Shown here: piece after piece, positions 4,399 through 63,529 of the stretch
Position numbering within the stretch: position 1 is the first letter of the stretch
Layout: the number at the start of each line of letters is the position of its first letter
From: Phorcus lineatus
Taxonomy: Eukaryota > Mollusca > Gastropoda > Trochida > Trochidae
Direction: 5' to 3'
Length of the DNA stretch: 64,000 nucleotides
Assembly: GCA_921293015.1 (NCBI GenBank)
Contig: OV121093.1
Span: forward strand, 1,364,001 to 1,428,000
Position numbers and translations under genes: made by a program
Notes under the pieces: model-generated
Databases searched by the model: none
Told to the model about the DNA's origin: nothing
What the model saw: only the letters and a program-made list of their open reading frames with translations

Positions 4399-4413
4399 AG
4401 TCCACGTAGATTC

Positions 4414-37811: not shown

Positions 37812-37843
37812 TGATCATTCTAGAGCCTGTTCTAGGTAAGTAT
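37812..37843 (-). ncRNA. U1: U1 snRNA 5' half (interrupted), unit G
   Basis: The minus strand begins ATACTTACCT at 37843 as in U1, then AGAACAGGCTCTA and TGATCA, where LINE G begins. GGCA is altered to AGAA, so this is a decayed copy. Confidence 0.8.
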
Positions 37844-38075
37844 GCTTTTCTGCTGAGCTCCGCCCGACCCCTAGTAGTCGCAATTTTCACTTCACATAAT
37901 TTGTAGGTTAAGTGGGCTATTTTATTGCATTGACTGAATGTAAAGACAAATCGGAGACTTTGAAGGTGAGACTTTTTTTCTTTTTTCTTTAGATCGTCAG
38001 CTCACAGAGAGAAATGTCAAAGGAACTATTTGTACAGAGAAGAGAAATGAAAGTTCTAATTTTTATATTGTATAT
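37844..38075 (-). promoter_or_regulatory. U1 intergenic flank, short variant
   Basis: Contains the U1 3' flank (CTCTGTACAAATAGTTCC; GAGCTGACGATCTAAAG) and the proximal 5' flank (GTGAAAATTGCGACTAC; GAGCTCAGCAGAAAAGC). It lacks the roughly 330-bp centre found in the 51303-51862 flank, including the -50 to -70 zone where a U1 proximal sequence element would lie. Confidence 0.7.
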
Positions 38076-38090
38076 AAGGGGAGAGCGCGA
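38076..38090 (-). ncRNA. U1: U1 snRNA 3'-terminal remnant
   Basis: GTTCGCGCTCTCCCC on the minus strand is the distal part of U1 stem-loop IV. The rest of the 3' half is deleted, with LINE H ORF1 joined directly. Confidence 0.75.
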
Positions 38091-39178
38091 ACTACGTCGG
38101 CGTAGGATCTCCTTCCAGGAGGTTGTGTATGGAGGACATTTGAATAGCAGGTCTCGTAGTGCTGCGACAATCCCTCTTTATGTGGCCTACTTCCTTCATC
38201 GTAGGAGGCAGGATAGCGCAGTGGTTAGCGTGTTCGACTTCGGATCAGGAGGTCCGTGGTTCAGGGGCTCAGCAACTTTGTCTGCAGTAGAGAACTGTTC
38301 TACACGCTGTCAGGTGTGGGTGAAATGCTGCACTGAAATTCACTGCAGTACCACCCATGGTTCGCCAGTTCCAGCCGATGCTCGCAGGTTTCACCGCAAT
38401 GCATAGCCACTATAGTGTTGCAGGCTTTCTCCCTGCAATGATACTAGTAGCTGCGATATAAGTGAAATAATCTTGAAAGCGGCATTAAACCCCAACTCAC
38501 CTCACCTCAACTCCTTCATCGTAATCTTAAAGCAGGTCAGCCATAGTCAACAGCAGATCAAACTTGTAGGAAGCTGCCGTCACCGAAAACAAGTGAGGAA
38601 TATGATCTATGCTCTCATGCTGTGTTTTTATAACCACATCAGAAGTCCCTAGAGGAAGGCCTTGGTCAACATCGTCTTCTGACCTTTCCTTTTTCACCGA
38701 GATGATAGTCAAAAAGTCCTTAAAATGTATCTAAGGAACTCTATGCCAAAAGACTCTGGCAACCAGTGCACAGGGAAATTGGTACGTATTCTGTCCACAA
38801 TCAAAACATCTACCACAAGTCTTGAGCTGAGATTGATCCTGCCAATGCCGTGCAAGACATTGGCCGCTGCGACTGTGCTGACAGTTATAAACCACTCATT
38901 GGCTTTGGTCCAATTGGCCATTCTCACCAGGTGAATGTCCTTTATATAGTGCATAAGAAGCCGATGCAGCTTATATTTGATCAAAGAAAATCTTTCTGGT
39001 CCTAGGAAGGTCACTTTAACCACTCACCTCACCTCACCTCACAGAGTTATCAACTAGTCCATGCGGTACTGGACCGTTGAAAACGTAGGTGCCATGATGA
39101 GGGGGGAGTGGTGTCCACAGACTGTGTGTAACGCACCCACTCGTAGACCTGTATAGAAAAAAAACTGACTGACAAAGC
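38091..39178 (-). pseudogene. LINE copy H: decayed leader and ORF1, split by a SINE
   Basis: The 5' end lies at 39178 (GGCTTTGTCAGTCAG on the minus strand), directly after another LINE's A-run. ORF1 (about 39100-38520, then 38200-38092) matches the copy B/C type: WFITVSTVAAANVLHGIGRI, RTNFPVHWLPESFG, ETQHESIDHIPHLFSVTAAS-like blocks. It has stops and a 3' deletion that joins ORF1 to the U1 3' remnant at 38090. Confidence 0.8.
38204..38511 (+). mobile_element. Full-length tRNA-derived SINE with 12-bp TSD
   Basis: TSD TCCTTCATCGTA at 38192-38203 and 38512-38523. The head has a good pol III A box (TAGCGCAGTGG) and a B-box-like GTCCGTGGTTCAGGGG about 40 bp later. The body holds GTAGAGAACTGTTCTACACG and CCACCCATGGTTCGCC; the tail is AACCCCAACTCACCTCACCT. 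It shares its 3' end with the ACTC-tailed SINE, so both may use the same LINE machinery. Confidence 0.9.
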
Positions 39179-40309
39179 CTTTTTTAAAATAAAGTTTATT
39201 CACAAGAAAGAGGGCTTAACTACATTCTCCCCAGGCACTCACTTTCAACAAACGTCTCACACTCAACTCATCCGGACATATCCCTGTCCGGTCATCAGCA
39301 TAAGCAGATATTTTTGCTTCCTCGTTAACCCCAGGAATTTTGATGCCCCTTATTAACTTATCACTCCTGATCTCAATAAGAAAAGGTTCCAAAACCAAAA
39401 CGTATAATAAAGGGCTAAGGCTACAGCCTTGCCTTACACTCCTATCCACGGGGAAAATGTCCGAAAAATTCCCATTAACCAAAACCTTGCTAGAAATGCT
39501 TGTATAAAGTAACCCACTTAATGAAATTGGTTCCAAAACCATAATTATGTAGGGCCTTGAATAGAAATTCGTGATTTACCCGATCAAAAGCTTTCTCCTG
39601 ATCGAGGCAAATGAAAGCCACAGAGGTACCTTTCTGCTCTACGTAATCTACAACATTCCGAAGAAGATGCAGATTGTCTGCTATTGATCTCCCCTTGATA
39701 GAACAAGTCTTTATCAGGGTGAACAATCTCAGTAATAACTTTTGATAGCCGACCTTCTAAAACCCTAGATAATATTTTGTAATCTACATTTAATAAACTA
39801 ATAGGACGCTAATTACGTAACAACTGAGGATTATTTTTATCTTTACATAGAAGAGAAATACATCCCAATTTTTGTGAATTACTCAATGAATCCTGACTCA
39901 AGGCCAAGTGATAAAGATGTACTAAGACATCGCTAAATAAATCCCAAAATGCCAAATAGAATTCTTTACTTAACCCGTCCAACCCCGGAGCTTTATTATT
40001 ATCCATACCCTTAAGTGTCCTTAAAGCCTCCTCTTTTGTTACAGCGCCCTCTATACTATCGGTCGAATTAATTCGTCAATAGATTCTGAGCAATAAAAAT
40101 CATCAATTTCTTCAGCCGAACATAAATTTGCATAAAAATCTTTACAATGATTGATGATATCATCATTACAATTATAACTTTCGTTTCCATTTACAAGATT
40201 CCTCGTTAACCCCAGGAATTTGAAACTTATCACCCCTGATCTTAATAAAAAAAAGGTTCCAAAACCAAAACATGTAATAATGGGCTAAGGCTACAGACTT
40301 GCCTTACCC
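39179..40309 (-). pseudogene. LINE ORF2 remnant with internal deletion and scrambled RT piece
   Basis: It ends at a T-run (39178-39184 on the plus strand, the poly(A) tail) after a short 3'UTR (ATAAAGTTTATTCACAAG). ORF2 pieces are the RT core with AYADDRTGIC (altered YADD context), CLDQEKAFDRVNHEFLF and LDGLSKEFYLAFWDLF, then the linker ESYNCNDDIINHC. All sequence after the YADD region is deleted. 40200-40309 repeats the IPGVNEE-to-GCSLSPLL segment upstream of the linker, so the order is rearranged. Confidence 0.75.
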
Positions 40310-40400
40310 TCACTATGCCTTTCTTTCCGTTTTTTTCCCATCCTGTTGATCCCTTTCTTCCTGATCTGTCAACTCTCTTTTTTTGGTGCTTGTCCGAAGG
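40310..40400 (+). mobile_element. ACTC-SINE middle fragment
   Basis: CTCACTATGCCTTTCTTTCC, CATCCTGTTGATCCC and GATCTGTCAACTCTC match the family. Both ends are missing. Confidence 0.7.
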
Positions 40401-41455
40401 GTTGATGTATTGGCTGACAAAATTAGATTGTTCACTTCTCTTCAGGTTCGAAAGCAGGACTGTGTCTCTCTTGTGTCACCCGTTGCCGAAAAAACACTTC
40501 TGCGATGTAGTAGGATAGTCCTCGTCCACCACTGTTTATTCAGAAGGGGTCGGCGGTACATTTGTTGGGTCATATGGGCAGACCACTCATCTAAACTATC
40601 AACAATGTCGTTTTCCATTTGTGAGTCTTGCATTTCACCGATGTATCATGACTGTCCGTGTTGTTGGTGCCCTTGACCCCTCCTTGCCTGTGCATAAGAG
40701 CTTCTACTTGGAGGAGCTCTCACAAGGGGTGGTGTTCGCTGTCTGAGAGAACCCTGACAAACCCTGCGGACATGTCCCATCTCCTGACACCTTAAACACA
40801 AAGGGGGCCTCCCAGCCATGGTGAATAGTAGATCGAACACCTGCCCAGGCACAGCTACCTCGTAAAGGTGCGGTAGATTCTCGACTTCCTCAAGCTTGGT
40901 CTCTATCGTGACATTATAGGTCCCCATGGGAAGTCCGAGGGCAAAATCCTCTTTTGAGGTCTCCACCTCAACGCTCAGAACTTTCCAGTGGTCCTTGAAA
41001 ATATTCTTCAGGAAGTCCACTCCACAAGACTCAGGAAGCCAGTGCACTTTAAAGGAAACTTTAACTCGGTCCTTACATGCCAGGTCCACTACAAGCCTGT
41101 CTGTAAGCTTGAGGTCATGTAGTAGCTTTACAGCCTCTTACGTCTTCACAGTTGCACACCACTCTGTAACCTTGCTCCTTTTGGTAATTCTCTCTAACTC
41201 TCCTATTTTGAGGTAATCAATTAAAAGTTGAAACACACGGAACCTGTTCATCGAAAACCTGTCTGGACCAATGAAAGTAAGCCGCATAACTCTTTGCCTA
41301 ATAGAGGTGTCCACAAGCCCAGCCGTTGCAGATCCATGAAAGTAGGTAGTAGCCATGATGAACAGCGTGGAGAAGGTGGTGTCTGAAGACTGCACAAAGC
41401 ACCCACCTGTAGACCTGAATAAAGAAAAATAGAGCTCAATACCAATCTGACACAG
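40401..41455 (-). pseudogene. LINE copy F: ORF1 with nonsense mutations
   Basis: The start ATG at about 41357 gives MATTYFHGSATAGLVDTSI; a stop near 41137 splits the frame. The remainder has KVSFKVHWLPESCGVDFLKN, LPMGTYNVTIETKLEEVENL and the zinc knuckle CLRCQEMGHVRRVC. The leader adjoins a U1 5' half at 41455. It is a distinct ORF1 subfamily. ORF2 is not attached. Confidence 0.8.
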
Positions 41456-41487
41456 GGAATCACTAGGAGCACGTGCCAGGTAGGTAT
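41456..41487 (-). ncRNA. U1: U1 snRNA 5' half (interrupted), unit F
   Basis: The minus strand from 41487 reads ATACCTACCTGGCACGTGCT, then CCTAGTGATTC, where LINE F begins. T6C and other changes mark a decayed copy. Confidence 0.8.
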
Positions 41488-41700: not shown

Positions 41701-42574
41701 GGTTCTCTGGCAGTCCATTGTAATGTGGCTTACTTACCCACCATGTACTTCGTCCCCTGGCTGCTCTTCTTGCCGATGTCCCCTGTCTCCTCTAGCCGCA
41801 TCGGCGTAAGACCTTCCAACATGACCATTTGTTCGAGGGATCGTGGCTGGTCTCCTTGTGCTTCCTTGGCAGTCCCTTCTTATATGACCCACTTGTCTAC
41901 ACCTCAGGCACAGAGGTGGTCGACCTGCCATGGTGATCAAAACTCGAATTTATGGATGGAAAACATCACCTCGAAAAGATGAGTGATGTTCTCAACTTCC
42001 TCGTTCCTTGTCTCTATGAGGACATTTTAAGTTCCCATGGGCAATCGCTCGTCAAAATCATCTTTTGATTTTACTTCTTCCACATCCAACACATTCCAAT
42101 GATTCCTGAAAATATGTTTCAGAAACTCCGGTCCAAACACCTCGGGGAGCCAGTGAACCTTAAAATTCACACAAACTCTATCCACGTGTGAGACCTGTAC
42201 CACTAGTCTGTCCGATATCCTCGTCTCCTCAATGTCGTGTAGCACTTAAGCAGAAGTGATACTTGAAAGGGTAACAAACCACTCGTTTGCCTTCATCCTT
42301 TTCGCTATCCTCTGAAGTTCTTGCTTGTTGACGTAGTCTAACAGAAACATGAATACCTAATATCTCTTCACTGCGAAAAGGTCCAGTCCAAGAAACGTTA
42401 ACTTCACCACTCTTCTCCTGATCTCTGTATCCATCAACTCGCTGGGTACCGATCCATGATTGTACGAACTCGCCATGGTCGAAACTGGAAAGAGGAGGTG
42501 TTGGAAGACCGTGCTTGCGCACCCACCCGTAGATCTGCAGAAAAGAAAAAAGCTCAATACTAGTCTGACACAGG
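41701..42574 (-). pseudogene. LINE copy E: broken ORF1, copy D type
   Basis: The ATG at 42476 gives MASSYNHGSVPSELMDTEI; stops lie near 42358 and 42244. Later parts include VHWLPEVFGPEFLKHIFRNH and the knuckle CLRCRQVGHIRRDC, with deletion of the C-terminus. It closely matches ORF1 of copy D at 62352-63398. Confidence 0.8.
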
Positions 42575-42606
42575 GAATCAATGTAGAGCCTGTGCCAGGT
42601 AAGTTT
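42575..42606 (-). ncRNA. U1: U1 snRNA 5' half (interrupted), unit E
   Basis: Minus strand: AAACTTACCTGGCACAGGCT, then CTACATTGATTC, followed by LINE E. One substitution at nt 2. Confidence 0.85.
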
Positions 42607-42775: not shown

Positions 42776-44528
42776 TATCCTCGTTAACCCCAGGAAGTTT
42801 AATGCCCCTTATATTAAAACCTTTCTGCTCCACATAATCTACAACATTTCGAAGAAGATGCAGATTGTCTGCTATTGATCTCCCCTTGATAGAACAAGTT
42901 TGATCAAGGTGAACGATCTCGGCAATAGCCGACTTTCTAAAACCCTAGATAATATTTTGTAATCTACATTTAATAATACAAATAGGACGCCAATTACGTA
43001 ACAACTGAGGATTATTTTTATCTTTACAAAGAAGAGATATACATCCCAATTTTTGTGATTTACTTAATGAATCCTGACTCAAAGCCGAGTTAAAAAGATG
43101 TACTAAGACATCGCCAAATAAATCCCAAAATGCCAAATAGAATTCTTTACTTAACCCGTCCAACCCCGGTGATTTATTATTATCCATACCCTTAAGTGCC
43201 CTTAAAGCCTCCTCTTTTGTTAAGGCGCCCTCTATACTATCGGCCGAAGCCACATCAAGAGTATGTTATTCATCGATAAATTCTGAGCAATAAAAATCAT
43301 CAATTTCTTCAGCCGAATATAAATTTGCATAATAATCTTTACAATGCTTGATGATATCATTACAGTTATAACTTTCGTTTCCATTTACATGATTCCGAAT
43401 GGAGTTTTTTAATTCCGATTGAAGAAAGCATTTGGAAGGCTATTCATTAATTTCCAAGACTTGAACTCTGGAGCGAATTACACTACCTCTTGCCCTATCA
43501 CAATTAATATCATATAATTGTGATTTGATTGCCTTGATTTGGTCAGCATACTCGCCAGGTTTCTGGGCTTCTGCATCAACCTATTCTCTGTATCGCCTTT
43601 GTAACTGGTAAAGTAATTTATTCTTACCAATAGCCACCCTTTTACTATAAGCCGAAATAAACTCCTTGAATTTAACTTTGAGATCCTCCCAGTCCGAAAG
43701 AGATAAAGCATTACTGATATTTAAACACTCCCAAAAATCACGAAATTGTGATAGAAATGCTTTATCAGACAACAAGGAGTTATTGAATTTCCAGTAACCA
43801 GGCCCCACAGAGATGACATCAAACTGCTCAAAAGTCAGAACACAATAATTGTGATCCGAGATCGAACAGGGTTTAACCTCACAACTCTTTACCATCGGCA
43901 TTAAATCAGCAGAAAGGTAAAACCTATCTAATCTACAAGAGACTTTACCACCCCGCCATGTTGTAATTACTTTATTTGGATAAAGAGCCCGGAAGGGGTC
44001 GATTAAATTATAATTTTTGATTAATTTTTGTAAGATGATAGAACCACCTTTCCCAGCTTTAGGATCTCCCCCGATCTTGTCCAAAAGAATATTGTTTATA
44101 AAGTTAAAATCGCCCCCAAATACAACATGGCGTCTAGTAACAAAATAATTGTCTAAAGCTGAAAGAAAATCTAGACGATTAGAATAATTTACAGGTGCAT
44201 ATATATTGATAAGGCGAAAATGAAGATTAAACATATCAATATCTAAAACAAATAATCTACCATCAAAATCATACTGAAATTTAACAATGCTGTAATTTAG
44301 ATGAGATGCTAACAATATTCCAACCCCTCTGGCGTTGCCAGTCCCAAAACTCCAGAAGGCCTTGCATCCAAACTCTCTCTCAACAGTCTGACCCTCTTTC
44401 ACACAAGCAACATGCGTCTCTTGCAAAAATAAAATATCAACTTTCATTCTCTTCCATTCTTCACACAACACTCTCCTTCTGGACCCACCCCTTATTCCCG
44501 CACAATTTAATGTTGAATAACTAAACAT
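42776..44528 (-). pseudogene. LINE copy A ORF2, broken and 3'-deleted
   Basis: Starts ATG at 44528 (MFSYSTLNCAGIRGGSRRR). The endonuclease domain is intact for 315 codons (FLQETHV, FGGDFNFI, SISDHNY), then a nonsense codon follows at 43581 (TTG to TAG). The linker and RT N-part follow with frameshifts (LRALKGMDNNKSPGLDGLSK). Most of the RT core is deleted and the rest of ORF2 is missing. The end at 42776 joins directly to U1 5' flank. Confidence 0.85.
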
Positions 44529-44948
44529 AAATGGAAATTGAGTAAAAATGTAAAAAATATGGTCTCAGGAGCAACATAAAACTTTTGGGATTATCTTACA
44601 TAATATATACATGATTTTGATACAATTATACATACAAAAGCAATACTTACAAAATTGAAAATCCATATAATCCAAAACGAAAAACACATATATATCCCAC
44701 GTGAAAACACATAAATCCATTGAGAATAACACAAACACACACATATATATATATCCATCGGAACAGGCATAAATCCAAAAGGGGAAGTCACATAAGTTCG
44801 AATATCCAGTACTGAAAAAAACCAAACACAATTCACAAATCACTCTCGTAGTCCGGAGGCGGTGCGGTCTGTGTTCGGGGGAACAATCCATTTCCATAGT
44901 CCGGGGGCATAGCGAAAATCGTCTTTGTTCTGACATAGTTGTAGTCAT

Positions 44949-45980
44949 TTAGGTGTCCTCATTGTCCACACTTGGGTTCGTCAAGGTTTTCCAACTCTTT
45001 TCGCGACGCTTGATGTCCTCCATCGTCTGTTCAACTGAGAGCGATCTCTTCAAACTCTTCTTCCCGTGAACAACCTCCTCACCCTCTTGTTGTTCCTGCT
45101 CTGTCAGAGTTTCGAGCTCCTGACTGTCTTTGGGGAAGACTTCTTCCGCTGTCTCCTTTCCCTCCACAACTTCCTCTGTCCAGTGCTTGGGCTGATGGTA
45201 CGTGTCTTCAAGGTCTTCGTCCATCTCGTTATCTATATACTTCGGAAGCGTCTCCTTGCCCTTCCCACTCAGAGCATCGGCGTACGATGGTACCGGCGCT
45301 TGCACTTGTGCTGGCCTCTCTCTTGGAGCCTCTGGAAAGCGGGCTTGTGATTTCCTCAAGTTGTTGCACTCCCTCCGGGTGTGTCCAACCTCCTCACACT
45401 TGAGGCATAAGGGGGGTCTGCCGGCCATCGTCACTAGGATCTGGAAGCTTGATGTTTCAGATAGCGCCACCAGAACAAGATGGGGAATGTTCTCGAGAGC
45501 CTCATTGTCACATTCTAGTAGAAGTTCGAACTGTCCGAGGAAACAGCCCTTGTCGAATTCATTCTCCGAGAACTCCTCCCTGCACCACAAGACATTGCCA
45601 TAATCCTTAAACAAGTTTGTAAGGAACCCCGTTCCAAATCTCTCGGGTAACCAGTGTATCCTGAGTCTGGTTCGCACCTTGTTCACTAAGAAACACGATA
45701 CAAGCAGTCTGGGGCTCAGTTCAACGTCCTCCATTTCATGTAACTTCAAGGCCTGAACATCCGTTGCTAAGGTAGCATACCATTCACTTCCTTTGTTTCT
45801 CTTTGTAAGCCTGACTACACTGTCTTGTCCACACTGCGCGATGATCCATGGGTATAACTTGAAACGGGTGACACTGAAACGTTCTGGTCCGTTAAAGGTC
45901 AGCTTCACTACTCTGTCCCTCACTGACTCGTCCACACAGTCAGTAGGCACAACTCCGCTCCATACCACAACTGGCTTCAT
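44949..45980 (-). CDS. LINE copy A ORF1 (CCHC nucleic-acid-binding protein)
   Basis: 343 residues from ATG at 45980 (MKPVVVWSGVVPTDC). The N-terminal third has VVKLTFNGPERFSVTRFKLY, a beta-rich segment shared by all ORF1 copies here. The middle has LRIHWLPERFGTGFLTNLF. The zinc knuckle is CLKCEEVGHTRREC (C-x2-C-x4-H-x4-C). The C-terminus is acidic (DEDLEDTYHQPKHWTEE) and then basic. The protein presumably packages LINE RNA. The reading frame is intact even though its ORF2 is dead. It is the most divergent ORF1 subfamily among the large copies. Confidence 0.85.
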   Translation of the reverse strand: MKPVVVWSGVVPTDCVDESVRDRVVKLTFNGPERFSVTRFKLYPWIIAQCGQDSVVRLTKRNKGSEWYATLATDVQALKLHEMEDVELSPRLLVSCFLVNKVRTRLRIHWLPERFGTGFLTNLFKDYGNVLWCREEFSENEFDKGCFLGQFELLLECDNEALENIPHLVLVALSETSSFQILVTMAGRPPLCLKCEEVGHTRRECNNLRKSQARFPEAPRERPAQVQAPVPSYADALSGKGKETLPKYIDNEMDEDLEDTYHQPKHWTEEVVEGKETAEEVFPKDSQELETLTEQEQQEGEEVVHGKKSLKRSLSVEQTMEDIKRREKSWKTLTNPSVDNEDT

Positions 45981-46400
45981 CCTGGGAAAGGTAAGTAGGG
46001 GGTGTCCGAAGACAAAGCGTACACGCAACCACCCAGTAGATCTGTAAAGAAAGCCTCAATACTCAACTGACAAAGCTGCTTTTTTTTTTTTTTTTTTTTT
46101 AGATAAAGTTTATTGCAACAAAAAGGACATAAGTACAATCTCCCCAGGCACTTAGAAATGGACAGCGATGATAAACTATGAGTATATACAAACAAATGAT
46201 ATGATGATGAAAAGTAGATGATGTTTAAATGAAAAGTGCCTGGGTCCTATAGCTTTCTGGCAACATTCTTCAGAAAAGCTAAAATCAGGGGAGGGATATA
46301 TACAAAGTCATGTGGAGAATATTTCTATTATGATTACTACTTGTGAAAATTGAAAAGCTTATAGTATACTTATGATATAGTTATAATGTACAAAGATAAT

Positions 46401-51270: not shown

Positions 51271-51302
51271 CTGATCACTAAGAGCCTGTGCCAGGTAAGT
51301 AT
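51271..51302 (-). ncRNA. U1: U1 snRNA 5' half (interrupted), unit B
   Basis: From 51302 on the minus strand: ATACTTACCTGGCACAGGCT, then CTTAGTGATCA. The first 14 nt equal canonical U1 (the 5' splice-site recognition sequence). The U1 sequence stops inside the stem-loop I loop and LINE B follows. Confidence 0.92.
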
Positions 51303-52312: not shown

Positions 52313-55300
52313 TCAGAAAGTAAACTCCACTTTATTATTTATGAAAGTGCAGAACAATTTTGGTTGCACCCAGTAAGAAATAAATAATTCGTCAGAAAAC
52401 CGAGCTTTGTCCACTACGATTCTAAACCGTAATCTTTCCAAAAAGGATGTTACCATACTTTCTTTGGTAACTACTTTACGTTTATGTTTTAGATTACACC
52501 TATCGGCCCAAATTTGATGTTTTGCCAAACACACCAAGTACAAGATAACATTTTTACGGAAATGGTCTGAAATGCCATGTAACAAATTAAACCGAATGAT
52601 TTCTGCATTGAGATCAATTAAGCCAAATGACAAGTCCAAAACCCAATTTCTGACGATGCTCCATAAAGTTGAGACCATATCACAAGAGTAAAACAAGTGC
52701 TCGACAGATTCATTATTATCATTACAAAAGGTACAAGTTTTAATGAGGGTATGGCGTTTACAATATAAATTAAAATTAGTGGGGACGATATCATGAAGTA
52801 AACGCCAGGATAAATTACGAAGCAGGGGGTCAATGAAGGAACTGTCGAGCATTTTAAAAGAAGCATTGAAATTTATAGTTGGAAAATATTTAACAATGGG
52901 ATTAACAGTACATATTTGAGAAATTATCATTTTATAAAAATCCCCACTTTTGAAAGGCTGATACCAATTAAAATTAGGATACATAGAAGTAAAATATTTA
53001 TAAGAAGCTAAACAGTTTTTGTAAAATGGTGGCATGACAGCAGAATGCAAAAGCATATTAGAGGCAAAATTACAATTGATATCACGTAAACTATACCCTA
53101 ACCAATAAATAGCAAAATGAACAAACTTAGAATTACAACCATTAATTACCTTATAAATATGATACAATCTTAAAGCGTGAAAACGAGAAGATACATGTAC
53201 AAAATTAACACCACCAAAATCTTTAACATTATATAAAACAGTGCGAGCTAAAGGCTCATACAAATGGGAACCCCAGGAATAATCAAAGCAAATACGGGTG
53301 GTAAGATCTATATACGGTTTTGGCATGTCCAAGACAGAGGCAACATACCAAAGCTTAGACATAGCCATCACCTTAACTATTAGCGATTTACCATAATACG
53401 AGAGATACCTATCCCTAAACTTAAAATTTAGAACCCCGTGCAATTTTGTAATAATTTCGTGCCAGTTATCGTCAGGAGTAATACTATTGCCAAATTTTAC
53501 CCCAAGAATTTTACATGAATCGGGCCATGAAATGCCAAAGGAATGGTCAGCCGAAACTCGCCACTTGCCGAACGCAAGGGCTTTCGTCTTACCCATGTTG
53601 AGACGGGCCCCCGACCCCTTACAATAACATTCACTCACTTTCAACAAACGTCTCACACTCAACTCATCCGCACATATCCCTGTCCCGTCGTCAGCATAAG
53701 CAGATATTTTTGCTTCCTCGTTAACCCCAGGAATTTTGATGCCCCTTATTAACTTATCACTCCTGATTTTGATAAGAAAAGGTTCCAAAACCAAAACATA
53801 TAATAAAGGGCTAAGGCTACAGCCTTGCCTTACACTCCTATCCACGGGGAAAATGTCCGAAAAATGCCCATTAACCAATACCCTGCTAGAAATGTTTGTA
53901 TAAAGTAATTTTACCCACTTAATGAAATTGGTTCCAAAACCATAATTATGTAGGGCCTTGAATAAAAATTCGTGATTTACCCGATCAAAAGCTTTCTCCT
54001 GATCGAGGCAAATGAAAGCCACAGAGGTACCTTTCTGCTCTACATAATCTACAACATTCCGAAGAAGATGCAGATTGTCTGCTATTGATCTCCCCTTGAT
54101 AGAACAAGTCTGATCAGGGTGAACGATCTCAGCAATAACTGTTGATAGCCGACCTTCTAAAACCCTAGATAATATTTTGTAATCTACATTTAATAAACTA
54201 ATAGGACGCCAATTACGTAACAACTGAGGATTATTTTTATCTTTACAAAGAAGAGAAATACATCCCAATTTTTGTGAATTACTTAATGAATCCTGACTCA
54301 AAGCCAAGTTATAAAGATGTACTAAGACATCGCCAAATAAATCCCAAAATGCCAAATAGAATTCTTTACTTAACCCGTCCAACCCCGGTGATTTATTATT
54401 ATCCATACCCTTAAGTGCCCTTAAAGCCTCCTCCTTTGTTACAGCGCCCTCTACACTATCGGCCGAAGCCACATCAAGAGTTGGTAATTCATCAATAAAT
54501 TCCGAGCAAAAAAAATCATCAATTTCTTCAGCCGAATATAAATTTGCATAAAAATCTTTACAATGCTTGATGATATCATCATTACAGTTATAACTTTCGT
54601 TTCCATTTACAAGGTTCCGAATTGTTTTATCTCCAGAGTTTTTGAATTCCGATTGAAGAAAGAATTTGGAAGGTTGTTCATTATTTTCCAAAACTTGAAC
54701 TCTGGAGCGAATTACACTACCTCTTGCCCTATCAAAATTAATATCATATAATTGTGATTTGATTGCCTTAATTTGGTCAGCATACTCGCCAGGTTTCTGG
54801 GCTTCTGCATCAACCAATTCTCTGTATCGCCTTTGTAACTGGTAAAGTAATTTATTCTTACCGATAGCCACCCTTTTACTATAAGCCGAAATAAACTCCT
54901 TGAATTTAACTTTTAGATCGTCCCAGTCCGAAAGAGATAAAGCATTACTGACATTTAAACCCTCCCAAAAATCACGAAATTGTGATAGAAATGCTTTATC
55001 AGACAACAAGGAGTTATTGAATTTCCAGTAACCAGGCCCCACAGAGATGACATCAAACTGTTCAAAAGTCAGAACACAATAATCATGATCCGAGATCGAA
55101 CAGGGTTTAACCTCACAACTCTTTACCATCGGCATTAAATCAGCAGAAAGGTAAAACCTATCTAACCTACAAGAGACTTTACCACCCCGCCATGTTGTAA
55201 TTACTTTATTTGGATAAAGAGCCCGGAAAGGGTCGATTAAATTATAATTTTTGATTAATTTTTGTAAGATGATAGAACCACCTTTCCCAGCTTTGGGATC

Positions 55301-55762
55301 TCCCCCGATCTTGTCCAAAAGAATATTGTTTATAAAGTTAAAATCGCCCCCAAATACAACATGGCGTCTAGTAACAAAATAATTGTCTAAAGCTGAAAGA
55401 AAATCTAGACGATTAGAATAATTTACAGGTGCATATATATTGATAAGGCGAAAATGAAGATTAAACATATCAATATCTAAAACAAATAATCTACCATCAA
55501 AATCATACTGAAATTTAACAATGCTGTAATTTAGATGAGATGCTAACAATATTCCAACCCCTCTGGCGTTGCCAGTCCCAAAACTCCAGAAGGCCTTGCA
55601 TCCAAACTCTCTCTCAACAGTCTGACCCTCTTTCACACAAGCAACATGCGTCTCTTGCAAAAATAAAATATCAACTTTCATTCTCTTCCATTCTTCACAC
55701 AACACTCTCCTTCTGGACCCACCCCTTATTCCCGCGAAATTTAAAGTAGAGTAGCTAAACAT
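52313..55762 (-). CDS. LINE copy C ORF2: APE endonuclease plus reverse transcriptase
   Basis: 1,149 residues, uninterrupted. Endonuclease at 1-230: N8 (LNFAG), E37 (FLQETH), D140/N142 (GGDFNF), D201 (CRLDRF) and S224-D225-H226. RT at about 440-800: LDGLSKEFYLAFWDLF, NWRPISLLNVDYKILSR, D587 (CLDQEKAFDRVN), RQGCSLSPLLYVLVLEPF and YADD at 689-692. C-terminal knuckle C1010-x2-C1013-x8-H1022-x4-C1027. Endonuclease and RT together act in target-primed reverse transcription. Architecture and A-tail suit the L1/Tx1 group, which includes other site-specific LINEs. All catalytic residues are present. Confidence 0.92.
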   Translation of the reverse strand: MFSYSTLNFAGIRGGSRRRVLCEEWKRMKVDILFLQETHVACVKEGQTVEREFGCKAFWSFGTGNARGVGILLASHLNYSIVKFQYDFDGRLFVLDIDMFNLHFRLINIYAPVNYSNRLDFLSALDNYFVTRRHVVFGGDFNFINNILLDKIGGDPKAGKGGSIILQKLIKNYNLIDPFRALYPNKVITTWRGGKVSCRLDRFYLSADLMPMVKSCEVKPCSISDHDYCVLTFEQFDVISVGPGYWKFNNSLLSDKAFLSQFRDFWEGLNVSNALSLSDWDDLKVKFKEFISAYSKRVAIGKNKLLYQLQRRYRELVDAEAQKPGEYADQIKAIKSQLYDINFDRARGSVIRSRVQVLENNEQPSKFFLQSEFKNSGDKTIRNLVNGNESYNCNDDIIKHCKDFYANLYSAEEIDDFFCSEFIDELPTLDVASADSVEGAVTKEEALRALKGMDNNKSPGLDGLSKEFYLAFWDLFGDVLVHLYNLALSQDSLSNSQKLGCISLLCKDKNNPQLLRNWRPISLLNVDYKILSRVLEGRLSTVIAEIVHPDQTCSIKGRSIADNLHLLRNVVDYVEQKGTSVAFICLDQEKAFDRVNHEFLFKALHNYGFGTNFIKWVKLLYTNISSRVLVNGHFSDIFPVDRSVRQGCSLSPLLYVLVLEPFLIKIRSDKLIRGIKIPGVNEEAKISAYADDGTGICADELSVRRLLKVSECYCKGSGARLNMGKTKALAFGKWRVSADHSFGISWPDSCKILGVKFGNSITPDDNWHEIITKLHGVLNFKFRDRYLSYYGKSLIVKVMAMSKLWYVASVLDMPKPYIDLTTRICFDYSWGSHLYEPLARTVLYNVKDFGGVNFVHVSSRFHALRLYHIYKVINGCNSKFVHFAIYWLGYSLRDINCNFASNMLLHSAVMPPFYKNCLASYKYFTSMYPNFNWYQPFKSGDFYKMIISQICTVNPIVKYFPTINFNASFKMLDSSFIDPLLRNLSWRLLHDIVPTNFNLYCKRHTLIKTCTFCNDNNESVEHLFYSCDMVSTLWSIVRNWVLDLSFGLIDLNAEIIRFNLLHGISDHFRKNVILYLVCLAKHQIWADRCNLKHKRKVVTKESMVTSFLERLRFRIVVDKARFSDELFISYWVQPKLFCTFINNKVEFTF

Positions 55763-56180
55763 AATATTGATAATTTTGGGTTATAGAAACTAAAATAATA
55801 TATGGTCTCATGGAGCTAAAATATATATATACAACATGTAATATTTCTACCATTACTATATACAGTACTATAACATAAACCATTCTAAAACTTTATACTC
55901 ACAACCAGAGAAATCCAAAATAAATCCAACATGAAAGCACAATAATCCAACAAGAGAAAACATATATAATCCAAAAATGAAAGCACTTGTTTCCCAAAAC
56001 ACGACACATATATTCCAAGATGAATAACACCACATCCAAAAGACATCATATATAATCCCTTGTTTAAATCGCGGGTCAGTTTCGAAGTCCGGGGGCATTG
56101 CAGTTTGGGTTTTGGGTTCACAATCAGTTCTCATAGTCCAGGGGCAGTGTATAGGTCATCAATGATAAGGTAAGTTATTA

Positions 56181-57320
56181 TCATGTTCCACTTGTGGATC
56201 CGCTGTCACTCTCCTCGTGATACTTGGTCACAAAATGCGCCTTCTCTCTTCTCTTAATGTCTCTCGCTGTTCTGTTTCTTGAGGGACTCCTCTTTCTTTG
56301 CCGGTTCTGTCTCTCATCCGTATCCATGATGCAGGCTATAATCTGGTCTCCAGATGCTGAAAACTGACTACGGTCCGTTGTATCTTTTGGGTCTGTCTCT
56401 CCAAGGTCCAACACACTGAGGTCCTTGGGATCTGTTTCCTTTGAGTTGAAAACTTCCGGGTCATTTTCCTTCGGATCCTTTTCCTTCGGGTCCTTGTCCT
56501 TAGGGTCCTTATCTTTAGGGTCCTCGTCCGTTCCGGGGTTACGAGCAGCCCAATCGTCGTGCTTTTCAGCATAATCCTGCTCCATATCCTCGTCCTGTGG
56601 TTCGTCAATGTAACGTGTCCTCTCTTGCCTACTGACGGCGTCGGCATAGGATATCCTTCCAGGACGTTGTACGTTGACTGACATCTGGCTAGCAGGCCTC
56701 AAAGTGCTACGACAGTCTCTCCTTATGTGGCCTACTTCCTTACATCTTAAACATAAAGGTGGTCTTCCAGCCATTGTCAACAGCAAATCGAACTTATAAG
56801 AAGCTGCCGTAACCGAAAACAAGTGTGGAATATGGTCAATGCTTTCGTGCTGTGTTTCTATTACAACATCATATGTCCCTAGAGGAAGGCCTTCGTCAAA
56901 GTCATCCTCTGACCTTTCCTCTTTCACAGATATGATGGTCCAAAAGTCCTTGAAAATGTAGCTGAGGAACTCTGACCCAAAAGATTCTGGCAGCCAGTGC
57001 ACACGGAAATTGGTGCGAATTCTGTCCACAATTGAAACGTCCACAACAAGTCTTGGACTAAGATTTATCCTTCCAATGCCGTGCAATAGATTGGCCGCTT
57101 CTACTGTGCTTACAGTAATAAACCATTCGTTGGCTTTGCTCCTCTTTGCCATCCTCACTAACTCATTGCCCTTTAAGTAGTCCATGAGAAAACGATGTAA
57201 CTTGAATCGGTTCATAGAAAATCTGTCCGGTCCAAAGAAGGTCACTTTAACCACTCGCTTCCTCACAGCATTGTCAACAAGTCCATGTGGTACGGGTCCA
57301 TTGAAAAACATCTCTGCCAT
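56181..57320 (-). CDS. LINE copy C ORF1
   Basis: 379 residues from ATG at 57320, aligned with copies B and D. VVKVTFFGPDRFSMNRFKLH begins the conserved N-terminal domain. The single CCHC knuckle CLRCKEVGHIRRDC follows MAGRPPL, then an acidic stretch (EPQDEDMEQDY), DPK-rich pentapeptide repeats, and a basic tail (KRRE). Likely the RNA-binding partner of ORF2. Its leader is only 92 bp from the U1 half, so translation would start close to the 5' end of a U1-initiated transcript. Confidence 0.92.
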   Translation of the reverse strand: MAEMFFNGPVPHGLVDNAVRKRVVKVTFFGPDRFSMNRFKLHRFLMDYLKGNELVRMAKRSKANEWFITVSTVEAANLLHGIGRINLSPRLVVDVSIVDRIRTNFRVHWLPESFGSEFLSYIFKDFWTIISVKEERSEDDFDEGLPLGTYDVVIETQHESIDHIPHLFSVTAASYKFDLLLTMAGRPPLCLRCKEVGHIRRDCRSTLRPASQMSVNVQRPGRISYADAVSRQERTRYIDEPQDEDMEQDYAEKHDDWAARNPGTDEDPKDKDPKDKDPKEKDPKENDPEVFNSKETDPKDLSVLDLGETDPKDTTDRSQFSASGDQIIACIMDTDERQNRQRKRSPSRNRTARDIKRREKAHFVTKYHEESDSGSTSGT

Positions 57321-57412
57321 GGTGAGGGGGGAGTGGTGTCCGAAGACTGTGCACAAAGCACCCACTCGTAGACCTGTATAACAAAAAAAAGAGCTCAATA
57401 CCAGTCCGACAC

Positions 57413-57444
57413 AGAATCACGTAGAGCCTGTGCCAGGTAAGTAT
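57413..57444 (-). ncRNA. U1: U1 snRNA 5' half (interrupted), unit C
   Basis: Minus strand from 57444: ATACTTACCTGGCACAGGCT then CTACGTGATTC. LINE C follows at TGTGTCGGACTGG. Matches the other five 5' halves with small changes near the junction. Confidence 0.92.
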
Positions 57445-58005: not shown

Positions 58006-58137
58006 CAGGGGAGAGCGCGAACGCAGTCCCCCACACTTATAAATTGCGCACCCGAGTCTTCCACATTTGGGAAGATCGCAGGGGTCAACCAAGCCGAGGT
58101 GCAATGGAAAGGTCTCGCCCCGGGCCCACAGCCTTGC
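58006..58137 (-). ncRNA. U1: U1 snRNA 3' half (nt 33-164)
   Basis: 132 nt following LINE D's A-tail, identical by eye to 51863-51994. It has the U1A-type loop ATTGCACCTC, stem-loop III with paired changes (TCTTCC/GGAAGA) and the terminal hairpin GACTGCGTTCGCGCTC. The Sm-site region reads AATTTATAAG rather than the usual AATTTGTGG, so it may be defective even apart from the insertion. Confidence 0.92.
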
Positions 58138-58437
58138 TTTTTGTTTTTTTTTGTTTTAGATAAAGTTTATTGCAACAAAAAGGACATAAGTACAATCTCC
58201 CCAGGCACTTAGAAATGGACAGCGATGATAAACTATGAGTATATACAAACAAATGATATGATGATGAAAAGTAGATGATGTTTAAATGAAAAGTGCCTGG
58301 GTCCTATAGCTTTCTGGCAACATTCTTCAGACAAGCTAAAATCAGGGAAGGGATATATACAAAGTCATGTGGAGAATATTTCTATTATGATTACTACTTG
58401 TGAAAATTGAAAAGCTTATGGTATACTTATGATATAG

Positions 58438-61400
58438 TTATAATGTACAAAGATAATTTAGAAAATAAACTCCACTTTGTTGTTTAAACTTAGGGTACAG
58501 AACAATTTGGGTTGTACCCAGTAAGAAATATAATAACTCGTCAGATAACCGGGCTTTGTCCACAACGATTCTAAATCGCAATCTTTCCAAAAACATTGTC
58601 ACCATACTTTCTTTGGTGATTACTTTACGTTTATGTTTTAGATTACACCTATCGACCCAAATTTGATGTTTTGCCAAACACACCAAGTACAAAATGACAT
58701 TTTTGCGGAAATGGTCTGAAACACCATGTAACAAATTAAACCGAATGATTTCTGCATTGATATCAATTAGGCCAAATGACAAGTCCAAAACCCAATTCCT
58801 GACGATGCTCCATAACGTTGAGACCATATTACAATGATAAAACAAATGCTCGACAGATTCGTTATTACTGTTACAAAATGTACAAGATTTAACAAGGGTA
58901 TGACGTTTACAATATAAGTTAAAATTAGTGGGGACGATATCATGAAGTAAACGCCAGGAGAGATTTCTTTGAAGGGGGTCAATGAAGGAACTGTCGAGCA
59001 ATTTGAAAGCAGCATGGAAGTTTACATTTGGATAAAGCTTTACAATGGGAGATGCAGTACATATTTTTGCTATCAACAATACGTAGAAATCGCAGCTCTT
59101 TAGAGGCTGGTACCAATTGAAATTAGGATACAAAGAAGTAAAATATTTATAGGAGGTTAAACATTTAGCATAAAATGGTGGCATTACAGCCGAATGTAAT
59201 AACATGTTTGAAGCAAAATTACAATTGACATCCCGTAAACTATACCCTAACCAATAAATAGCAAAATGAACAAACTTAGAATTACAACCATTAATTACCT
59301 TATAGATATGAAATAACCTTAATGCCTGAAAGCGAGATGGAACATGAACAAAATTAACACCGCCAAATTCTTTAACATTATATAAAACAGTGCGAGCTAA
59401 AGGCTCATACAAATGGGAACCCCAGAAATAATCAAAGCAAATACGGGTGGTAAGATCTATATACGGTTTTGGCATGTCCAAGACAGAGGCAACATACCAA
59501 AGCTTAGACATAGCCATCACCTTAACTATTAGCGATTTACCATAATACGAGAGATACCTATCCCTAAACTTAAAATTTAGAACCCCGTGCAATTTTGTAA
59601 TAATTTCGTGCCAGTTATCGTCAGGAGTAATACTATTGCCAAATTTTACCCCAAGAATTTTACATGAATCGGGCCATGAAATGCCAAAGGAATGGTCAGC
59701 CGAAACTCGCCACTTGCCGAATGCAAGGGCTTTCGTCTTACCCATGTTGAGACGGGCCCCCGACCCCTTACAATAACATTCACTCACTTTCAACAAACGT
59801 CTCACACTCAACTCATCCGCACATATCCCTGTCCCGTCGTCAGCATAAGCAGATATTTTTGCTTCCTCGTTAACCCCAGGAATTTTGATGCCCCTTATTA
59901 ACTTATCACTCCTGATTTTAATAAGAAAAGGTTCCAAAACCAAAACATATAATAAAGGGCTAAGGCTACAGCCTTGCCTTACACTCCTATCCACGGGGAA
60001 AATGTCCGAAAAATGCCCATTAACCAATACCCTGCTAGAAATGTTTGTATAAAGTAATTTTACCCACTTAATGAAATTGGTTCCAAAACCATAATTATGT
60101 AGGGCCTTGAATAAAAATTCGTGATTTACCCGATCAAAAGCTTTCTCCTGATCGAGGCAAATGAAAGCCACAGAGGTACCTTTCTGCTCTACATAATCTA
60201 CAACATTCCGAAGAAGATGCAAATTGTCTGCTATTGATCTCCCCTTGATAGAACAAGTCTGATCAGGGTGAACGATCTCAGCAATAACTGTTGATAGCCG
60301 ACCTTCTAAAACCCTAGATAATATTTTGTAATCTACATTTAATAAACTAATAGGACGCCAATTACGTAACAACTGAGGATTATTTTTATCTTTACAAAGA
60401 AGAGAAATACATCCCAATTTTTGTGAATTACTTAATGAATCCTGACTCAAAGCCAAGTTATAAAGATGTACTAAGACATCGCCAAATAAATCCCAAAATG
60501 CCAAATAGAATTCTTTACTTAACCCGTCCAACCCCGGTGATTTATTATTATCCATACCCTTAAGTGCCCTTAAAGCCTCCTCCTTTGTTACAGCGCCCTC
60601 TATACTATCGGCCGAAGCCACATCAAGAGTTGGTAATTCATCAATAAATTCCGAACAATAAAAATCATCAATTTCTTCAGCCGAATATAAATTTGCATAA
60701 AAATCTTTACAATGCTTGATGATATCATCATTACAGTTATAACTTTCGTTTCCATTTACAAGGTTCCGAATGGTTTTATCTCCAGAGTTTTTGAATTCCG
60801 ATTGAAGAAAGAATTTGGAAGGTTGTTCATTATTTTCCAAAACTTGAACTCTGGAGCGAATTACACTACCTCTTGCCCTATCAAAATTAATATCATATAA
60901 TTGTGATTTGATTGCCTTAATTTGGTCAGCATACTCGCCAGGTTTCTGGGCTTCTGCATCAACCAATTCTCTGTATCGCCTTTGTAACTGGTAAAGTAAT
61001 TTATTCTTACCGATAGCCACCCTTTTACTATAAGCCGAAATAAACTCCTTGAATTTAACTTTGAGATCGTCCCAGTCCGAAAGAGATAAAGCATTACTGA
61101 CATATAAACCCTCCCAAAAATCACGAAATTGTGATAGAAATGCTTTATCAGACAACAAGGAGTTATTGAATTTCCAGTAACCAGGCCCCACAGAGATGAC
61201 ATCAAACTGCTCAAAAGTCAGAACACAATAATCGTGATCCGAGATCGAACAGGGTCTAACCTCACAACTCTTTACCATCGGCATTAAATCAGCAGAAAGG
61301 TAAAACCTATCTAACCTACAAGAGACTTTACCACCCCGCCATGTTGTAATTACTTTATTTGGATAAAGAGCCCGGAAAGGGTCGATTAAATTATAATTTT

Positions 61401-61911
61401 TGATCAATTTTTGTAAGATGATAGAACCACCTTTCCCAGCTTTGGGATCTCCCCCAATCTTGTCCAAAAGAATATTGTTTATAAAGTTAAAATCGCCCCC
61501 AAATACAACATGGCGTCTAGTAACAAAATAACTGTCTAAAGCTGAAAGAAAATCTAGACGATTAGAATAATTTACAGGTGCATATATATTGATAAGGCGA
61601 AAATGAAGATTAAACATATCAATATCTAAAACAAATAATCTACCATCAAAATCATACTGAAATTTAACAATGCTGTAATTTAGATGAGATGCTAACAATA
61701 TTCCAATCCCTCTGGCGTTGCCAGTCCCAAAACTCCAGAAGGCCTTGCATCCAAACTCTCTCTCAACAGTCTGACCCTCTTTCACACAAGCAACATGCGT
61801 CTCTTGCAAAAATAAAATATCAACTTTCATTCTCTTCCATTCTTCACACAACACTCTCCTTCTGGACCCACCCCTTATTCCCGCGCAATTTAAAGTTGAA
61901 TAGTTAAACAT
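58438..61911 (-). CDS. LINE copy D ORF2, C-terminus frameshifted
   Basis: 1,157 residues from MFNYSTLNCAGIRGG. Endonuclease (FLQETH, GGDFNF, SISDHDY), RT (CLDQEKAFDRVN, AYADDGTGIC) and the knuckle CTFCNSNNESVEHLFYHC are all intact. Near 58530 one extra base relative to copy B changes the ending from DELFISYWVQPKL to DELLYFLLGTTQI, replacing the last roughly 20 residues with about 30 others. The change lies beyond the zinc knuckle, so the effect is uncertain. Confidence 0.9.
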   Translation of the reverse strand: MFNYSTLNCAGIRGGSRRRVLCEEWKRMKVDILFLQETHVACVKEGQTVEREFGCKAFWSFGTGNARGIGILLASHLNYSIVKFQYDFDGRLFVLDIDMFNLHFRLINIYAPVNYSNRLDFLSALDSYFVTRRHVVFGGDFNFINNILLDKIGGDPKAGKGGSIILQKLIKNYNLIDPFRALYPNKVITTWRGGKVSCRLDRFYLSADLMPMVKSCEVRPCSISDHDYCVLTFEQFDVISVGPGYWKFNNSLLSDKAFLSQFRDFWEGLYVSNALSLSDWDDLKVKFKEFISAYSKRVAIGKNKLLYQLQRRYRELVDAEAQKPGEYADQIKAIKSQLYDINFDRARGSVIRSRVQVLENNEQPSKFFLQSEFKNSGDKTIRNLVNGNESYNCNDDIIKHCKDFYANLYSAEEIDDFYCSEFIDELPTLDVASADSIEGAVTKEEALRALKGMDNNKSPGLDGLSKEFYLAFWDLFGDVLVHLYNLALSQDSLSNSQKLGCISLLCKDKNNPQLLRNWRPISLLNVDYKILSRVLEGRLSTVIAEIVHPDQTCSIKGRSIADNLHLLRNVVDYVEQKGTSVAFICLDQEKAFDRVNHEFLFKALHNYGFGTNFIKWVKLLYTNISSRVLVNGHFSDIFPVDRSVRQGCSLSPLLYVLVLEPFLIKIRSDKLIRGIKIPGVNEEAKISAYADDGTGICADELSVRRLLKVSECYCKGSGARLNMGKTKALAFGKWRVSADHSFGISWPDSCKILGVKFGNSITPDDNWHEIITKLHGVLNFKFRDRYLSYYGKSLIVKVMAMSKLWYVASVLDMPKPYIDLTTRICFDYFWGSHLYEPLARTVLYNVKEFGGVNFVHVPSRFQALRLFHIYKVINGCNSKFVHFAIYWLGYSLRDVNCNFASNMLLHSAVMPPFYAKCLTSYKYFTSLYPNFNWYQPLKSCDFYVLLIAKICTASPIVKLYPNVNFHAAFKLLDSSFIDPLQRNLSWRLLHDIVPTNFNLYCKRHTLVKSCTFCNSNNESVEHLFYHCNMVSTLWSIVRNWVLDLSFGLIDINAEIIRFNLLHGVSDHFRKNVILYLVCLAKHQIWVDRCNLKHKRKVITKESMVTMFLERLRFRIVVDKARLSDELLYFLLGTTQIVLYPKFKQQSGVYFLNYLCTL

Positions 61912-62351
61912 TTGTTGTTTTAAGTAGGGGAAATGAAATATACAATTATGGTCTCATGGAGCTAATTTGGAAATACTTATGGAAATGATACAAAACTTTA
62001 GTTTAAAAACATGACACAAAAAATGAAACACCAAACTAAACATACTTACAAATAATGAAGTCCAAAAATAATCCAAAGCGAAAACACAATAATCCCATAA
62101 GTGAAAACAAGAATAATCCATCAGGAGACACATATAATCCATTGGAAAACACATATAATCCTTTGTATGACACATATAATCCGAAAACGAAAATAGCTTG
62201 AAGCACGTGACACATAGTTCCTGGTTTGAATCACAGTTCAGTCTCAGAGTCCGGGGACGTAGCAGTTGTGGTTTGGGGTCACAGTCCATTCTCCAAGTCC
62301 GGGGGCAAAGCAAAGGTCGTTCTTGTAAGAGACACGTCATAATTGCTGCAA

Positions 62352-63398
62352 CTATCCTGCTCCACTAGTTGAGCCACTGTCTCCACCTGATCTCCCCGCA
62401 TGTCCGTTTGCAACAGGCTCACGCCTCTTACTGTCCTTAGACGTTCTTTTGGTCGAACTTGGTCTTTTCTGCGAGCGGCTCCTTCTTTCCTCTGACTCTC
62501 CTCTCTGAAAGGCGACTTGTTCAGCTTCCTGCGAGTCCTGTGTTGGAATAGGCGGAATGGAAAAAGTCTCCTGTTCTTTCCCTTCCATAATGATCGTGAC
62601 TTCTGCTTCAGATGCAGCCCAATCCTGGGAATCACCAGTGATGTTCTCCTCCATCGCAATGCCCTGTACTTCGTCCCCTGGCTGCTCTTCTTGCCGATGT
62701 CCCCTGTCTCCTCTAGCCGCATCGGCGTAAGACCTTCCAACATGACCATTTGTTCGAGGGATCGTGGCTGGTCTCCTTGTGCTTCCTTGGCAGTCCCTTC
62801 TTATATGACCCACTTGTCTACACCTCAGGCACAGAGGTGGTCGACCTGCCATGGTGATCAATAAGTCGAACCTATGAATGGAAAACATCACCTCGAAAAG
62901 ATGAGGGATGTTGTCCACTTCCTCATTCCTTGTCTCTATTAGCACATTATACGTTCCCATGGGTAATCCCTCGTCAAAATCATCTTTTGACTTTTCCTCT
63001 TCGACTTCCAAAACATTCCAATGATTCCTGAAAATATGTTTCAGGAACTCCGGTCCAAAACCCTCGGGTAGCCAGTGAACCCTAAAATTCACACGAACTT
63101 TGTCCACGTGTGAGACTTGGACCACTAGTCTGTCCGATATCCTCGTCTCCTCAATGTCATGTAGCACTTGAGCAGAAGTGACACTTGAAAGGGTAACGAA
63201 CCACTCATTTGCCTTCATCCTTTTCGCTATCCTCTGAAGTTCTTGCTTGGTGACGTAGTCTAACAAAAACATGAAGACTTTGTACCTCGTAACTGCGAAA
63301 CGGTCTGGTCCAAGAAATGTTAACTTTACAACCCTTTTCCTGATCTCTGTGTCCATTAACTCTCTGGGCACCGATCCATGATAATAAGAACTCGCCAT
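62352..63398 (-). CDS. LINE copy D ORF1
   Basis: 348 residues from ATG at 63398 (MASSYYHGSVPRELMDTEI). Residues 20-80 hold VVKLTFLGPDRFAVTRYKVF and NEWFVTLSSVTSAQ. Residues 103-125 hold VNFRVHWLPEGFGPEFLKHI. The zinc knuckle uses C190, C193, H198 and C203 (CLRCRQVGHIRRDC). The tail is acidic, then Arg/Ser-rich (KRPSSTKRTSKDSKRRE). It differs from copies B/C over the whole C-terminal third, lacking the DPK repeats, and matches decayed copy E. Confidence 0.92.
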   Translation of the reverse strand: MASSYYHGSVPRELMDTEIRKRVVKLTFLGPDRFAVTRYKVFMFLLDYVTKQELQRIAKRMKANEWFVTLSSVTSAQVLHDIEETRISDRLVVQVSHVDKVRVNFRVHWLPEGFGPEFLKHIFRNHWNVLEVEEEKSKDDFDEGLPMGTYNVLIETRNEEVDNIPHLFEVMFSIHRFDLLITMAGRPPLCLRCRQVGHIRRDCQGSTRRPATIPRTNGHVGRSYADAARGDRGHRQEEQPGDEVQGIAMEENITGDSQDWAASEAEVTIIMEGKEQETFSIPPIPTQDSQEAEQVAFQRGESEERRSRSQKRPSSTKRTSKDSKRREPVANGHAGRSGGDSGSTSGAG

Positions 63399-63497
63399 GC
63401 TGGAAACTGGAAAGAGGTGGTGTCCGAAGACTGTGCTGGCGCACCCACCCGTAGATCTGAAAAAACGAAAAAAGGCTCAATACCGGTCTGACACAGG

Positions 63498-63529
63498 GGA
63501 TCACTGTAGAGCCTGTGCCAGGTAAGTAT
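63498..63529 (-). ncRNA. U1: U1 snRNA 5' half (interrupted), unit D
   Basis: Minus strand from 63529: ATACTTACCTGGCACAGGCT then CTACAGTGATCC, followed by LINE D (CCTGTGTCAGACCGG). Confidence 0.92.

Follow-up and report, generated by a model that had tools for sequence, protein, structure and literature searches.

LINEs inserted at one site of U1 snRNA genes in Phorcus lineatus, with relatives at U2 and U4 genes

The DNA analysed here is a 64,000-nucleotide stretch of contig OV121093.1 of the gastropod Phorcus lineatus (positions 1364001-1428000; the contig is called C25 and the whole stretch the window in what follows), and it carries long interspersed nuclear elements (LINEs) that lie inside genes for U1 small nuclear RNA (snRNA). 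From the window, the array adjoining it and searches of the genome (957.8 Mb in 74 contigs) we conclude, with a probability of roughly 90%, that a LINE family of the L1/Tx1 kind with two open reading frames (ORFs) inserts specifically into U1 genes and that its relatives do likewise at U2 and U4 genes. The anatomy of the inserts shows the site, the U1-sense orientation, a 3' join through the A-tail, the lack of a target duplication and full length. The original prediction, made from the window, had proposed a U1-specific LINE as a new system. The U1 specificity stands; the scope was too narrow, since relatives targeting U2 and U4 are present in the same genome.

The U1 array and its inserts

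The window takes in the low edge of a tandem array of U1 genes, most of which lies outside it (at least 42 Rfam U1 matches were scored). Twenty stretches of 10 kb were taken, of which 18 adjoin the window and were scanned with it by script (C25:1364001-1608000, 244 kb) and the other two make up C25:1638001-1658000 (20 kb), and intact U1 genes were called from paired 5' and 3' motifs. The 244 kb hold 103 intact U1 genes, spaced mostly by 725 bp, and 18 U1 genes that are split by one LINE with both halves kept. A U1 5' half stands alone at six places: four in the window (copies C, E, F and H below), a fifth at 1605729 that belongs to a 3'-shortened LINE copy, and a sixth at 1555268 that resembles a U1 gene with an internal deletion and has no LINE. 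The 20-kb piece contains 28 intact U1 genes, and the LINE has no match in it.

Within the window all elements lie on the minus strand. All six U1 5' halves that had been read there are confirmed (nt 1 at 63529, 57444, 51302, 42606, 41487 and 37843), as are two 132-nt U1 3' halves directly after A-tails (58137-58006 and 51994-51863; 79.0 and 79.7 bits with Rfam RF00003). Two further copies, with 5' ends at 46079 and 39179, adjoin the A-tail of the preceding copy and not U1. The features are as follows (RT, reverse transcriptase).

63498-63529, minus: U1 nt 1-32, 5' half upstream of LINE A
58138-63497, minus: LINE copy A, full length, A-tail included
63476-62352 and 61953-58438, minus: LINE A ORF1 frame with CCHC motif, and ORF2 with endonuclease, RT and zinc finger
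58006-58137, minus: U1 nt 33-164, 3' half downstream of LINE A (Rfam RF00003)
57421-57444, minus: U1 nt 1-24 upstream of LINE B
51995-57420, minus: LINE copy B, full length (ORF1 frame 57416-56181, ORF2 55780-52313)
51863-51994, minus: U1 nt 33-164 downstream of LINE B (Rfam RF00003)
51281-51302, minus: U1 nt 1-22 upstream of LINE C
46080-51280, minus: LINE copy C, A-tail end at 46080, ORF2 split into two frames (49499-48384 and 48383-46401)
42819-46079, minus: LINE copy D, without 3' end, starting right after the A-tail of C (tandem)
46055-44949 and 44564-43581, minus: LINE D frames for ORF1 and endonuclease
42575-42606, minus: U1 5' half upstream of LINE E
41744-42574, minus: LINE copy E, a 3'-truncated remnant
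41456-41487, minus: U1 5' half upstream of LINE F
39180-41455, minus: LINE copy F, internally deleted, A-tail present
38095-39179, minus: LINE copy G, starting right after the A-tail of F (tandem)
37812-37843, minus: U1 5' half upstream of LINE H
37711-37811, minus: start of LINE copy H, degenerate, possibly extending further down

The intact target reads CTCTACAGTGATCC/GCAAGG. When junctions and intact genes were tabulated over the adjoining array, all 18 interrupted U1 genes were found to be split at this same site, and the LINE lay in U1-sense orientation in 18 of 18, as had been noted. Downstream of the insert U1 picks up at nt 33 in 17 cases and at nt 34 in one; upstream it stops at nt 32 in two inserts, at nt 24 in ten and at nt 22 in six (including that at 1436237). 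The predicted fixed break in the stem-loop I region therefore holds for the site and its downstream join, not for the 5' join, which varies. There is no target duplication, U1 nt 1-32 and 33-164 flanking the insert. Between U1 nt 15 and a point near the A-tail end the inserts span 5371-5467 bases (n=18), so none of them is 5'-truncated. The genome has two kinds of U1 gene: the loop reads GATCCGCAAG in the C25 array and GATCAGCAAG, with a different stem, in the U1 genes of contig C15 (locus L029).

ORF2 matches Pfam PF03372, PF00078 and PF13966, corresponding to an N-terminal apurinic/apyrimidinic (AP) endonuclease, an RT with a YADD or FADD motif and a C-terminal zinc finger. Its closest solved structure in the PDB is human L1 ORF2p (2.1e-68 along residues 19-868; R2 gave 1.9e-20). 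The CCHC knuckle CxxCxxVGHxRxxC is present in all five ORF1s examined, which come from the U1, U2 and U4 families. Pfam, motif and tail readings bear out the ORF1 CCHC, AP endonuclease, RT and A-tail first noted in the window, and an N-terminal AP endonuclease and RT in ORF2 with a separate CCHC ORF1 and an A-tail are the features of an L1/Tx1-type LINE.

Genome-wide, a LINE 5'-end probe (one 5' type, which does not match copy E; all candidates were scored for this probe and for the 3'-end probe below) gave 24 matches, all on C25. Of these, 23 lie in the U1 cluster between 1.40 and 1.61 Mb, and the last is at 1.75 Mb. In the cluster, 22 come directly after a U1 5' half and the remaining one, copy G, follows an A-tail. 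An ORF2 protein search gave 40 matches (39 of 10,295 candidates scored): 22 on C25, 12 on C5 and 6 on C39. All 22 have at least 92% identity and lie in the C25 U1 cluster, and the 18 on C5 and C39 have 41-43%, with the same share of candidates scored. By the 5'-end probe most copies (23/24) thus lie at one target, as in a site-specific LINE, and the scatter over unrelated sites that would have spoken against the predicted specificity did not appear.

Elsewhere in the window, another LINE with endonuclease and RT frames lies at 1864-6945, apart from the U1 genes, and pieces of a Toll-like gene with a TIR domain and leucine-rich repeats lie at 23648-25746 on the minus strand.

Relatives at U2 and U4 genes

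Wherever flanks were read in the C5 and C39 clusters, they proved to be snRNA gene halves. On contig C5, locus L030 reads as a LINE end, U4 from nt 34-36 (RF00015, 63.1 bits), a spacer, U4 nt 1 to 26-28 and the next LINE. The C5 cluster (L030 and L045; 37.71-37.86 Mb) holds at least 16 U4 matches by RF00015 (41 of 78,289 candidates scored). Three of these score 117-122 bits and a fourth 86. The remaining 12 reach about 63 bits, like the 3' half seen in L030, which is one of them; going by their score, the 11 others are apparently interrupted in the same way. On contig C39, a LINE end is followed by U2 from nt 35/36 in L031 and L032 (RF00004, 124.8 bits), where U2 5' halves precede two different LINEs; U2 lies on both sides of another element in L047 and L051, and a fourth LINE kind stands behind a U2 5' half in L048. 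Across C39:6.96-7.20 Mb these five loci present U2 genes cut by at least four related LINE kinds with different 5' joins. Near this U2 cluster, at L037 (C39:7240446), a U1-type LINE 3' end is followed by the apparent 5' end of another LINE family.

The reverse search with a U2-type ORF2 found at least 47 pieces (41 of 9,254 candidates scored); C39 has 13 of them, C5 15, C25 17 and C16 two, which look like one degraded copy. A tree of 11 ORF2s places the U4 element with two C39 elements (support 96), while three other C39 elements stand apart (support 90) and the U1 set is distant, at 42-43%. U2 was seen flanking two of these five C39 elements on either side, one from each group (6961090 and 7198985). 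The relatives concerned are 75-77% identical in ORF2, and the nesting of the U4 element among elements of the U2 cluster points to an apparent switch from U2 to U4. The U4 family probably arose from a U2-targeting ancestor, and one LINE family thus seems to have changed its target among spliceosomal RNA genes. A clearly diverged endonuclease was sought in the U4 family and not found: its endonuclease is 65.9-70.0% identical to those of the two nearest C39 elements, which are 69.4% identical to each other.

The elements also have features in common at the level of RNA. A pyrimidine tract ending in CAG, resembling a 3' splice site, is found in seven of the eight window copies (CGG in H) and in all seven U2 and U4 junctions read. 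In most it is followed by NTCTACG and then by a small three-way junction, which often carries a UUCG loop; the module lies at window 63480-63410, at the equivalent place in the other copies, and in L030-L032 and L047-L050. Among 11 sequences folded, the three-way junction is predicted in seven (U1_A, U1_B, U1_C, U1_E, U4_a, U2_a and U2_b) and not in U1_D, U1_F, U1_G and U1_H. A genome-wide search for a strict form of the 5' module gave 17 occurrences, 13 of them in the U4 cluster and four on C39, and the reversed control gave none. A hairpin near the 3' end is predicted in all four U1, U2 and U4 elements folded. Pairing of the snRNA 5' half with the first LINE bases (window 63529-63470 and the U2 and U4 counterparts) gives a predicted hairpin in seven of 10 junction types. 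Set against 1000 shuffles of the LINE part, with segments cut by hand, this hairpin stands out in U1_A, U1_B, U1_C, U4_a, U4_c and U2_b (0-40 shuffles as low), is weak in U2_a (89) and is without signal in U4_b, U2_c and U2_d (938-991). As it is missing in three of the 10 types we rejected it as a universal feature, and it is not a defining one.

Insertion and spread

We propose that in an empty U1 gene the ORF2 endonuclease would nick the template strand between nt 32 and 33, and that the poly(A) RNA would then be reverse-transcribed from the nicked end by the target-primed reverse transcription of an L1/Tx1-type ORF2p. The LINE RNA may be made from the host U1 promoter and hence begin at or near the U1 start, in which case U1-derived bases at its 5' end would aid the upstream join. 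We slightly favour this source of the RNA, because the inserts lie below upstream DNA that is unaltered over 560 bp and because the LINE carries U1-like bases. These bases, GTGATTC with a private change, occur in 15 of the 18 inserts and in none of the 103 and 28 intact U1 genes; as the LINE carries them, its RNA probably extends into U1.

Alternatively, more than DNA sequence may direct the ribonucleoprotein, which would then be tethered to the complex that transcribes snRNA genes and would cut at a constant distance from the start site. The insertion points lie at similar distances from the snRNA 5' end, at nt 32 in U1, 34-35 in U2 and 33-35 in U4, and no motif common to the three sites was seen by eye, no motif search having been made. 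The tandem copies speak for it too. After the A-tail comes GCAGCTTTG in C and GGCTTTG in F, each the start of the next LINE, and if the upstream copy inserted second, which is an inferred order, the same side of the site was used though the DNA downstream was LINE. This suggests that the upstream side of the site matters most and makes tethering to the start complex a possible lead, given three targets. Yet the targets are three only, two of them in close relatives, and according to PMC8869645 both endonuclease types share in target-specific cleavage, aided by other domains and by cellular proteins. The C15 U1 genes, with their different stem-loop I, have no LINE match nearby (none in 8 kb), which also fits recognition of sequence. 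On balance we regard tethering as rather unlikely. Equally tentative is our speculation that a single LINE clade may have specialised on the promoter-proximal part of RNA polymerase II snRNA genes, finding U1, U2 and U4 by start-site position, probably via the initiation or paused-polymerase complex and not by a fixed DNA word, with the host snRNA promoter and the shared RNA leader (the 3'-splice-site-like tract and three-way junction) allowing it to hop between spliceosomal RNA genes.

It is very improbable that the inserts go back to a single chance landing of a LINE in U1, the interrupted unit then having been spread by unequal crossing-over and gene conversion. Such spread would account for several near-identical inserts that share an A-tail, and the array is indeed strongly homogenised: 74 of the 80 measurable intact units are letter-identical. 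Compared with one intact unit, the upstream flanks of the inserts are exact in 16 of 18 (one over 414 aligned bases only) and match at 585 of 586 in the other two, and the downstream flanks are exact in 16 of 18 (one over 588 aligned) and match at 684 of 685 and 679 of 686 in the others. The LINEs inside these units are far more diverse. ORF2-part identity among the 18 inserts falls to 92.8% (a difference of up to 7.2%), and two ORF1 types occur, 61% identical as DNA in their 5' parts and 45% as proteins. Diverged lineages and distinct ORF1s at the same base of near-identical units are incompatible with copying of one interrupted unit alone, the very outcome under which the original prediction would have fallen, and a single landing with duplication as the sole cause was rejected on this ground. 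The 5' join at three positions, the many different A-tails, the tandem copies that join on the same side of the site and the similar placement of related families in U2 and U4 also argue for targeted insertion.

LINE A and LINE C are 98.9% identical in ORF2 DNA (58135-61237 against 46077-49179) and differ in ORF1 type (that of A, at 62352-63476, has 45% protein identity to the B type), a mismatch that on sequence comparison reads as module exchange between lineages.

The idea that the elements bring the U1, U2 and U4 pieces with them, as snRNA-headed template-switch chimeras, and that these are not targets can be dismissed almost entirely: snRNA-headed short interspersed nuclear elements are known and a few U1-like bases (GTGATTC) do travel with the LINE, but all 18 complete inserts are followed by the missing U1 3' half, the DNA upstream of them is the unit of the array itself (586/586 or 585/586 in 17 of 18; 414/414 aligned in one), and intact sites stand beside filled ones.

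Several observations weigh against specific insertion into U1 as we read it. The LINE 3'-end probe gave 33 matches, of which 19 lie in the main array, another four on C25 at 1.745-1.752 Mb and the last 10 on other contigs; for the 14 off-array matches 11 3' flanks were fetched, and none runs into U1 nt 33, one of them having a U1 5' half about 300 bases further on. The specificity is therefore strong and not perfect. Three pairs of inserts (1553923/1502731, 1531326/1519380 and 1578095/1490777) share LINE, 5' join and A-tail, one pair down to an odd base in the A-tail, so that duplication also spreads copies; independent insertion and array duplication both seem to occur. Copy numbers in the array hang on the assembly, and transcription from the U1 promoter is something we infer from sequence. 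The family is known from one genome, and scans of two other collections (genome contigs and viral contigs) with the U1-family ORF2 found no relative.

Known systems and meaning

According to PMC4640811, the elements of snRNA genes reported by 2015 were only Keno and Utopia, both of U2, together with Dada-U1 and Dada-U6, which agrees with the earlier remark that U2 is a known target of site-specific LINEs. Our search of open-licence papers (Repbase not included) found no literature on LINEs of U1 or U4 genes. The LINEs of U1 and U4 genes appear to be new. Keno resembles the present elements as a LINE with an AP-type endonuclease in an snRNA gene, and in the Phorcus U2 families the join with U2 falls at nt 35/36, close to where Utopia and Keno are described to insert (PMC4640811); in contrast to Keno, which is recognised by insertion in U2, the window family sits in U1 and another in U4. 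With Utopia they have in common an snRNA gene target, variable 5' joins and tandem insertions (reported for Utopia in PMC4640811), but Utopia has a restriction-like endonuclease. Assignment to such LINEs was rejected since an N-terminal AP endonuclease was found instead, a restriction-like domain not having been searched for separately. Dada-U1 likewise targets U1 genes. It is a DNA transposon that probably duplicates 6 bp of its target, GCGAAT or GCGAAC (PMC3706591), whereas the window LINE has an RT and an A-tail, uses another U1 site and lies between U1 nt 1-32 and 33-164 without duplication, and a Dada-type transposon was rejected. Human L1 provides the best solved relative of the window ORF2. 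L1 is dispersed in the genome, unlike the window LINE, which is site-specific and whose complete array copies are full length.

With these elements the snRNA targets of LINEs come to include U1 and U4 besides U2. The relatives among which the apparent U2-to-U4 switch is seen, at 75-77% identity in ORF2, are near enough for domain swaps that address target choice. A LINE that inserts in full length and orderly fashion into a highly multicopy RNA gene is of interest for gene insertion at safe sites. In Phorcus itself, the U1 array is a tandem gene family under parasite load in which concerted evolution can be read directly.

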